Positions 36,929 through 39,032 of a stretch of 64,000 bases of DNA are shown in pieces. The notes beneath the pieces are model-generated. The model had not been told where the DNA came from. It searched no databases and worked only from the letters and a program-made list of their open reading frames with translations. Source of the DNA: Paraglaciecola polaris LMG 21857 (GTDB taxonomy: Bacteria; Pseudomonadota; Gammaproteobacteria; Enterobacterales; Alteromonadaceae). Made by a program: the position numbers and the translations under genes. The stretch is from contig NZ_BAER01000047.1 of NCBI RefSeq assembly GCF_000315055.1, positions 1 through 64,000 on the forward strand, in the 5' to 3' direction. Within the stretch, counting starts at the first letter, position 1; each line of letters begins with the position of its first letter.

Positions 36929-37600
36929 CTAGGCTTCCCGCTGTGGCGTTAATTTGCGCTGAATGTTGTTTTTCGAATATAAAATATGCCGACGCATAAG
37001 CATTTCTGCTAACTCGCCATCGCGATTACAAATGGCTTGCACTATATGTTTATGTTCATCAAAAGCGGTACTCACTCGTGGACCTGACATGCCTAATTGC
37101 ACACGATACATGCGCACTAAGTGGTAAATACCATTGATCAACATAGCAATTAAATGATTGTTTTTGCTGCCCAAAATAATCCGGTAGTGAAAGTCCACGT
37201 CCCCTGCTTCTTGGTAATAAGAGCCATGGTTTTTCACGTCTTCTGAGTGCACATTCAGCAAAGCATTTAAGTCTGCGATTTCTGCATCGGTCATGTTCTG
37301 GGCCGCTAAGCGTGCGGCCATGCCTTCAAGCGACTCACGCACTTGATACAAGTCCACCAGCCCTTCAGGGGAAAGTGACACCACACGTGCACCTACATTG
37401 GCTTTACGCTCAACAATATGACAAGACTCCAAGCGGTTTATCGCTTCACGGATTACTGCCCGGCTAACACCATACTTTGTCGACAATTCAGTTTCGCTAA
37501 GCTTAGAACCAGCCAACACCACACCTTCCACTATGTCTTTACGCAACTGGAAAAACGTCTTGTCCGCGGCGGTAATAGGCTGTTCGGTTAGGTTTTGCAT
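36929..37600 (-). CDS. GntR family regulator of the methylcitrate operon
   Basis: A 223-residue FadR-type GntR repressor: winged HTH at about 15-80 (YGVSRAVIREAINRLES) and a helical FCD ligand domain with metal-binding histidines (for example HYRIILGSKNNHL). It is the first gene before prpB-prpC-acnD-prpF and is read in the same direction. Two copies of TGTCGACA frame a likely promoter upstream, so it probably represses itself and the operon until a cycle intermediate such as methylcitrate binds; the ligand is inference. In several gammaproteobacteria such regulators are named prpR, a name also used for unrelated proteins, so none is assigned. Confidence 0.88.
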   Translation of the reverse strand: MQNLTEQPITAADKTFFQLRKDIVEGVVLAGSKLSETELSTKYGVSRAVIREAINRLESCHIVERKANVGARVVSLSPEGLVDLYQVRESLEGMAARLAAQNMTDAEIADLNALLNVHSEDVKNHGSYYQEAGDVDFHYRIILGSKNNHLIAMLINGIYHLVRMYRVQLGMSGPRVSTAFDEHKHIVQAICNRDGELAEMLMRRHILYSKNNIQRKLTPQREA

Positions 37601-37673
37601 GAATTAAGCATCAATTCCACTGGTAATTATTGCAGCTGACCCCGATAGTTAAATTAGGCCAGTCTGCAAAAGA

Positions 37674-37735
37674 TGTCGACAATATAGCAAATTAATTGGT
37701 TTTTTCAAGAGATAATGTGGGGGATTGTCGACAAT
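37674..37735 (-). promoter_or_regulatory. prp operon promoter with two GntR operator candidates
   Basis: On the minus strand, -35 TTGAAA (37708-37703) and -10 TATATT (37686-37681) are 16 bases apart. The perfect palindrome ATTGTCGACAAT (37724-37735) lies upstream of the -35, and TGTCGACA (37674-37681) overlaps the end of the -10. Two identical eight-base palindromes framing a promoter, 74-135 bases before the regulator start, are strong signs of an autoregulated operator. Confidence 0.7.
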
Positions 37736-37746
37736 TGGTTGTTTTT

Positions 37747-38300
37747 GACCTTGCGGTCGGATTTGCGCTGCGCTTACTTATGGCCTACGGCCACCTATGC
37801 ACTGCGTGCACGTTTATTCGCTGCGTTCACTTTATGGCCTGCGGCCACTATGCGCTACGCTTATCGTCATCCATGACGAGTATGACTCTCGTCCCTACGA
37901 GCCAGTAACTTCTTTTATAAAGTGCATCCATGCACTTTACCTACAGGCCAGCTAAAACTGTTCCATATTTATCCCGTAAATATTGGTCAACAGCCAAAAG
38001 AAGTCACCAAGACAAAAGGGTCGGGAACCATTTTGAACATCCGAAGGATGACCCGAAGGGCAAAGTACAGGATGTACTTTGTAAAGGCCGCTCTCCAGCA
38101 ACACTCTATTCTCGGCAACGGCTCCCTGCGTTGCTCTACCTTCCAATATCCATGTTGGTCGCCTGCGCGTCTCGACTAACACAGGTCGTGAAAACTCAAA
38201 TTGGTTATTATTTTCTCCTCGATTTGAAACACATCCCTGATGATCGGCCCCCAGTCTCGCCATCCATAGCGAGCCGCACAACTGGGCGCTACTGCGTAGC
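37747..38300. repeat. Element made of many miniature hairpins
   Basis: A non-coding stretch with at least twelve short perfect inverted repeats, most with 2-3 base centres: GACC/GGTC (37747-37758), TGGCC-TAC-GGCCA (37781-37793), TGCAC-TGC-GTGCA (37798-37810), TGGCC-TGC-GGCCA (37835-37847), GCG-CTA-CGC (37852-37860), CGTCAT-CC-ATGACG (37865-37878), CTCG/CGAG (37888-37901), TAAAGTGCAT-CC-ATGCACTTTA (37918-37939), CATCC-GAA-GGATG (38038-38050), CCC-GAA-GGG (38052-38060), AAAGTACA-GGA-TGTACTTT (38062-38080) and GCTAC-TGC-GTAGC (38288-38300). Open frames of up to 189 codons crossing it have no ribosome site and are not credible genes. It looks like a dispersed repeat of the genome; copies elsewhere cannot be checked here. 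Confidence 0.65.
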
Positions 38301-38660
38301 TAAAGAATCCAGTTTCACCCATGCAATCGACCCAGTGTTAGCCTTCGTTGCTCGGGGAGTCTTGAGTCGAGAGAAAAGCAAAGCAGCGACTGCGCCGCCA
38401 AAAGGAAAAAGTAGGGTCAGAGTAAACTTTTCAGTATGTTTACATGTCTGCCTCACAGAGTTTTTGAATGTACAGTTTTTGGCCCGGCATCATTGGTGAT
38501 TCCCCTATTCCGGCAGATCTTGAAATATTCCTTATCACTATAACGACAAAGAATGAAACCAGAAAAATTTTAACCTGTACAACGAGTTAGTGTGTATGTT
38601 AATAAAGACAAGTGGGGGGGTCTCCGAATAATAATATTGTTAATAAGCAAGGAGCATTAC
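38301..38660. other. Gene-free stretch after the hairpin element
   Basis: About 360 bases that continue the low-information region. No gene or clear promoter; an A/T-rich segment just before the lipoprotein gene probably holds its promoter. Confidence 0.35.
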
Positions 38661-39032
38661 ATGAAGTTTCGTATAATCACCATAGTATCGTTAGTTATTT
38701 TATCACTTTCCGGCTGTGCAACATCTTCCTACTCTGTAGGTAAAAATTTTTCTAGCGAAAATGTACCTCAAATAATTAAGGGTAAAACTACAACTGAAGA
38801 AATGGTCAATTTATTTGGTGAACCCTATTCTAAGACTGTAATCTCAGCGACTGACGAAAAATGGATATATATGCACTCGGAAGGCACTGCTAAAGCGCAG
38901 AGTTATATTGTTACAATGGATGTTAAAACTACTGGTACTCAAAAAATGCTAGATGTATTAATTACTGATGGCGTTGTTTCAAACTATACATTTACCGAAG
39001 GGCAAAATCCTTACACTATGCAAGTAAACTAG
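38661..39032 (+). CDS. Small lipoprotein with SmpA/OmlA-like fold
   Basis: A 123-residue lipoprotein, lipobox LSLSGC with Cys19. After a linker, the segment IIKGKTTTEEMVNLFGEPYSKTVI matches the SmpA/OmlA (BamE-like) helix-turn pattern in which G-x-T/S-x-E-x-x-x-x-F/L-G-x-P is conserved. Probably anchored to the outer membrane. It is not the true BamE of the assembly machine by context, and its role is unknown. AAGGAG lies seven bases before ATG 38661; the open frame upstream is not used. AT-richer than its neighbours and alone between two long gene-free stretches, it may be acquired. Confidence 0.75.
   Translation: MKFRIITIVSLVILSLSGCATSSYSVGKNFSSENVPQIIKGKTTTEEMVNLFGEPYSKTVISATDEKWIYMHSEGTAKAQSYIVTMDVKTTGTQKMLDVLITDGVVSNYTFTEGQNPYTMQVN

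Follow-up and report, generated by a model that had tools for sequence, protein, structure and literature searches.

What produced the cluster of short, perfect inverted repeats at positions 37747-38300 of the window (by which we mean the whole 64,000-nt stretch of DNA that was analysed), and why do its stems differ in sequence while sharing one design? With stems of at least 4 bp and loops of 2-4 nt, the interval holds 14 perfect hairpins (mean of 5.5 in dinucleotide shuffles, with 1/1000 reaching 14), but this count is not the window maximum, and because two other places reach 16-17, short stems alone are unexceptional. With stems of at least 5 bp there are nine, the maximum of the whole window, while the shuffles average 1.3, never exceed 6 and reach nine in 0/1000 cases. 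The cluster of palindromes pointed out in a preliminary description of this DNA is therefore real, and the hairpin centres it named (TAC, TGC, CTA, GAA, GGA and CC) are all found in the region. The same description stated that no gene explains the array, and we agree: no Pfam family matched the four ORFs over or beside it at E<=1, which led us to reject protein coding as an explanation, and no Rfam covariance model matched 37500-38700 at E<=1.

The region turns out to be a copy of a composite repeat, rich in hairpins, that belongs to Paraglaciecola. Similar arrays occur both in the genome and in its relatives, with 17 matches in the window's own genome and further matches in all 22 genomes of the genus and in 35 of 60 relatives. 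Since the matches cover recurring blocks whose order is sometimes changed, the region is a mosaic (Table 1). What was described as a single array arising in place is in fact a run of mini-hairpins, then two discrete copies of a palindromic element (PE), then weaker hairpin modules extending to about 38403. The repeat is dispersed in many copies, and separate palindromic elements have entered this one by insertion. One PE copy sits between the arms of the core stem, and variant cores with changed stems also occur; a scan of the genome contigs with the core pattern returned three loci only, all in Paraglaciecola. The reading that we favour, at a probability of roughly 0.7, is that the composite repeat was built by insertion of mobile palindromic elements, that PE is moved in trans while folded as a single strand, and that the composites form borders of gene exchange.

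Table 1. Features of the composite repeat and its surroundings (window positions).
Feature	Position	Strand	Remarks
GntR/FCD regulator gene	36929-37600	-	Conserved left border of hot spot
Outer 4-bp hairpin, GACC-TTGC-GGTC	37747-37758	.	Left edge
Mini-hairpin array	37765-37901	-	GNA or GGA loops on minus strand, pointing away from core stem
Perfect mini-hairpins	37781-37793, 37798-37810, 37835-37847, 37864-37879, 37888-37901
Shorter or imperfect mini-hairpins	37765-37773, 37817-37828, 37852-37860, 37878-37888
Core long stem	37905-38007	.	Arms 37905-37916 (GTAACTTCTTTT) and 37996-38007 (AAAAGAAGTCAC)
PE copy 2	37916-37986	-	Model match 37916-37985, E 1.7e-16; one extra base belongs to the insert
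PE copy 1	38013-38083	+	E 7e-19; a GGA-looped helix at each end, C-GAA-G mini-hairpins between
Inner hairpin modules common to other copies	38110-38403	+	Recurrent blocks ~38110-38165, 38229-38320, 38313-38403
123-aa ORF adjoining the composite, at the position of other genes in related species	38661-39032	+	No Pfam or NCBIfam match

Both PE copies in the window are exact insertions, one in each orientation: with the two removed, the remaining sequence agrees at every one of 56 nt with an empty copy (locus L005) on another contig of the same genome, and is nearly identical to a second locus, L045. Among 100 listed copies, a few of them tandem duplicates, an A precedes the element (position -1) in 87 and follows it (position +1) in 91. 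For 74 of the 100 (the rest being dropped as tandem, overlapping or weak) we searched for the joined 8+8 flanks, and found them intact elsewhere for 18 copies, representing 13 distinct junctions; controls with the right edge shifted gave 0, 0, 1, 0, 3 and 0, 0, 0, 0, 0, and for the other 56 copies an intact empty site was not found among the DNA compared. PE thus inserts between A and A without target duplication, with the joined flanks equal to the empty site exactly and the target-site duplication typical of DDE-type MITEs not seen. All listed matches to the covariance model of the element (R1, see below) read 1-72, which may reflect the search mode, and the edges of PE therefore rest on the junction test.

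PE is a discrete multi-hairpin element of about 70-73 nt in most copies, with ends CAAA...TA. In an alignment of 19 chosen copies, which belong to the PE1 and PE2 types and of which three come from other genera and three from integrase genes, three helices covary: both sides change in 14 of 21 pairs, 98.5% of the cells pair, and the covariation score of 0.527 was reached by 0/500 shuffles and by none of the slid controls (at most 0.137). Stem pairs of this longer element thus co-vary between copies. Both long helices carry GGA in their loops without exception (19/19).

The model built from this alignment, R1, gave 122 matches in 94 sources, both window copies included. Judged by such matches, PE is scattered through many related marine bacteria: at E<=0.001 it was detected in 132 of the 196 genomes sampled from the family (45 of 52 genera), in 90 of 247 genomes of the order, and in 65 of 398 in a sample of the phylum, with 12 being from the same class only and another 30 belonging to different classes, the matches outside the order being weaker. 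The number of copies per genome in these searches is a lower bound. Within the other classes, 29 of the 30 positive genomes belong to one family (f57), possibly a second centre of spread. Head-to-tail tandem arrays of PE with a period of exactly 72 nt occur at G145:C1:1868687-1869046 (an L145-type match) and at L196. A single 71-nt PE copy, the sole query used, found no match among plasmids (72,556 records) or phages (50,697 records).

The targets of PE include sequence identical to the start of tRNA-Gly (GCGGGA/ATAGC) and T-arm-like sequence (GGTTCGA/ATCC and its reverse). Of 26 scanned loci, picked as best matches, 14 contain tRNA genes, the PE-bearing pieces being tRNA fragments beside intact genes. 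In four Paraglaciecola integrase genes (L157, L158, L160 and L166), PE lies antisense, with the RHSF codons on one side and the ATH codons on the other; the reading frame across it is open in L158 only and shifted in the other three. Four more loci (L153, L177, L180 and L185) resemble these insertions by flank only. The interrupted site is conserved, and is the same in the different integron integrase lineages represented by the four genes. Could the hairpins instead be attC recombination sites of a chromosomal integron with its cassettes? Sites of this kind lie beside cassette genes and form an imperfect hairpin from conserved paired boxes. The elements do adjoin or sit inside some integrase genes, an integrase above the family cut-off is present in 18 of 22 genus genomes, and the cargo described below resembles cassettes. 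However, the window's own genome has no integrase above that cut-off (best 97 bits vs 265), PE interrupts the integrase gene rather than serving as its substrate, and attC-like boxes are recognizable by eye only; we consider this explanation highly improbable.

As regards the mini-hairpins, C-GNA-G is an unusually stable DNA loop of this kind. It forms the centre of 186 of the 531 hairpins with 5-3-5 geometry counted over 56 element loci, of which some overlap (GAA 76, GCA 72, GTA 25, GGA 13). Once same-context repeats had been removed and all non-control loci taken in, C-GNA-G sites with all four outer pairs numbered 208/3765 vs 14.7 expected, and 17/1952 vs 7.6 expected in 400 kb of control DNA sampled from a related genome, G006. 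For the commonest form, TGNNC-TNC-GNNCA, both inner pairs are complementary at 102 of the 144 sites, where 9 would be expected, and nine different inner sequences occur. Spacings between successive centres concentrate at 16-21 nt (132 of 265 distances under 60), and to the left of 27 cores the GNA strand faces outward in 49 hairpins and inward in a single one.

Unrelated stems of common design were originally taken to exclude simple duplication. Stems that are unrelated within a common design do require selection on folding or a palindrome-preserving process, and this part of the argument stands; however, the units of the array form a limited repertoire, in changing order, common to several species, so duplication and reshuffling contribute as well. 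This repertoire suggests that single mini-hairpins may multiply by unequal recombination or slippage combined with selection for folding. Selection for folding of the single strand is well supported. A purely mutational process, in which hairpin-templated replication errors perfect near-palindromes with neither selection nor a mobile element, would account for perfect stems of many sequences around a common stable loop. The excess is nevertheless confined to these repeats, given the counts in the control DNA, and the exact, discrete insertions and conserved GGA loops would be left unexplained, so that we give this possibility very little weight. A genome-wide palindrome process was likewise rejected: in the 400 kb of G006 the hairpin centres are mixed, intergenic hairpins are not dominated by C-GNA-G, and R1 has only four matches at E<=1.

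It could also be argued that a transcript of the composite or of PE is what is maintained, in a role as structured RNA, dispersal being secondary; GGA-loop hairpins binding CsrA, as in a sponge RNA whose loops would mostly carry GGA, or outward hairpins protecting mRNA 3' ends, would be examples. The invariant GGA of the PE loops and the strand polarity of the mini-hairpins would agree with this, as would the predicted RNA folding of 37747-38420, which is more stable than 20/20 shuffles on each strand (z -3.73 and -2.78). On the other hand, GGA loops are a minority among the mini-hairpins, PE occurs in both orientations within one composite and antisense in the integrase genes, and Rfam offers no match, which leaves an RNA role unlikely.

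Turning to the surroundings of the repeat, genes closely related to the window's GntR/FCD gene (95-96% identity) are present in six other species, and the intergenic region that follows it carries hairpin clusters in six of these seven loci, the clusters being decayed in L097 (G012). The genes beyond this locus vary: G015 has a RelE-type pair and G006 one gene with a PIN domain, G002, G007 and G008 have unmatched genes, with an FRG gene coming next in G008, and the window has the unmatched 123-aa ORF of Table 1. A second hot spot, marked by a common 200-aa gene with no Pfam match, likewise holds differing genes in G000, G002, G006 and G007. In eight of 16 loci checked, using queries that included sequence from some of these same loci, a block in the window's orientation stands to the left of the accessory genes and a reversed block to their right, so that the arrays face outward; L128 is mixed. 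Cargo matches include Septu PtuA (2.8e-140) with an HNH gene, PDC-S15 (1.1e-114), PDC-S34 (1e-15), an AAA ATPase of OLD/AriA type and RelE with an HTH protein. HipA with an HTH protein adjoins a single block, a RelA/SpoT match falls below the family cut-off, a DDE transposase is among the cargo of L050, and for many cargo proteins there is no match at all. At two shared loci, then, the composite stands in inverted copies on either side of accessory genes that vary from species to species, several of them defence or toxin-antitoxin genes. A conserved stretch of about 100 nt (AACCTGTACAAC..GTTA ... ATATTGTTA) occurs at 38561-38642 and at the corresponding position in L098-L101, immediately ahead of the varying cargo genes at the prpR-side hot spot, and is attC- or attI-like by eye.

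Based on these observations we can outline how such loci might arise. PE would be non-autonomous and moved in trans as a folded single strand, more likely ssDNA than RNA. Its folding, helped by the very stable GNA loops, would be what is selected; the stems do change by compensatory substitution, with the loops fixed. The composites would then act as borders for the exchange of defence and toxin-antitoxin genes, most simply via homologous recombination between the repeats. We infer movement as single-stranded DNA because there is no target duplication, hairpins lie at both ends, insertion occurs in either orientation into hairpin-forming sequence, and there is a weak orientation bias. Relative to the replichore, PE orientation is 80:48 (p 0.006) for 128 copies among the matches listed, of 272, in 11 genomes and with ter assumed opposite dnaA; a bias is expected of lagging-strand ssDNA transposition, but the one seen here is weak, and it is absent in three of the 11 genomes, G328, G299 and G118 (12:13, 8:10 and 5:5).

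Transposition of the IS200/IS605 type proceeds through ssDNA, with hairpins near both ends, strand polarity and no target duplication, and depends on transposases of the Y1_Tnp family. PE shares the end hairpins, the polarity and the lack of duplication, but a search for Y1_Tnp gave no match in the element-rich genomes G006 and G007 (24 and 27 element matches), one in G000 and 11 in G016, and its absence from the first two disfavours this known ssDNA route. The same finding bears on REP/BIME-type elements moved by a RAYT, a Y1_Tnp protein. These too are short palindromic hairpins in mosaic clusters, of high copy number and intergenic location, and ssDNA hairpins are established substrates of RAYTs (PMC3733652). 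PE, however, has several hairpins per unit, its consensus lacks the GTAG or CGTC tetranucleotide tag that REP carry at one end, and the sole RAYT-like gene in the window's genome has flanks without such an array. We therefore rejected the RAYT/REP system as a general driver, Y1_Tnp being missing from two element-rich genomes, and an origin of this kind is barely credible.

In its workings PE resembles the Rickettsia palindromic elements (RPE) and the REP type, yet it lacks defining features of both groups. RPE are described as small, strongly palindromic, non-coding mobile repeats of 105-146 bp, located between genes and in protein and RNA genes (PMC2229807). PE likewise inserts in protein genes (integrase) and in RNA-gene sequence (the tRNA-Gly start and T-arm motifs). 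Unlike RPE, whose palindromic repeat has terminal inverted repeats, it is a shorter chain of several hairpins with invariant GGA and GNA loops, and whereas RPE keep the frame of the host protein, PE shifts it in three of the four integrase genes. Correia/NEMIS, ERIC and RUP elements resemble PE in being MITEs under 200 bp, non-autonomous and foldable; most bacterial MITEs, however, are described as making target-site duplications and having terminal TA motifs (PMC2229807), and PE makes no duplication. The BoxC or PIT intrastrand triplex motif is repeated, intergenic and linked to variable loci (PMC4666352), as is the composite, whose core also has a purine/pyrimidine stem; the published E. coli motif differs in being G/C-rich.

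We found no description of PE or the composite in the open PMC literature, the scope of our search. Palindromic elements have reportedly been seen in rRNA genes of a marine gammaproteobacterium, although we did not find that report in the open PMC literature; should they be PE, its novelty falls. Only tentatively do we propose that PE represents an undescribed class of mobile DNA of about 72 nt, widespread in Pseudomonadota, moving as a folded single strand and inserting precisely between A and A without target duplication, favouring tRNA-like hairpin loops and one integron integrase site, and nested in composites that border exchange hot spots of anti-phage and toxin-antitoxin genes. Decades of cataloguing small palindromic repeats have left their mode of movement largely open. 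With exact sites in both the empty and the filled state, a covariance model and numerous copies in the family, the mobilising factor becomes searchable by co-occurrence and testable, and the link to interchangeable defence genes, with no transposase in view, offers a concrete route for defence-gene turnover.

Two further observations concern the edges of the locus. At the inner end of the composite, 38411-38426, lies GTAGGGTCAGAGTAAA, a sequence seen near RAYT genes, but GGGTCAGAGTAAA occurs only in L001 among 91 loci. Between the GntR gene and the array, TGTCGACA palindromes at 37674-37685 and 37725-37736, with another within the gene (37477), are probably operator sites of the GntR regulator.
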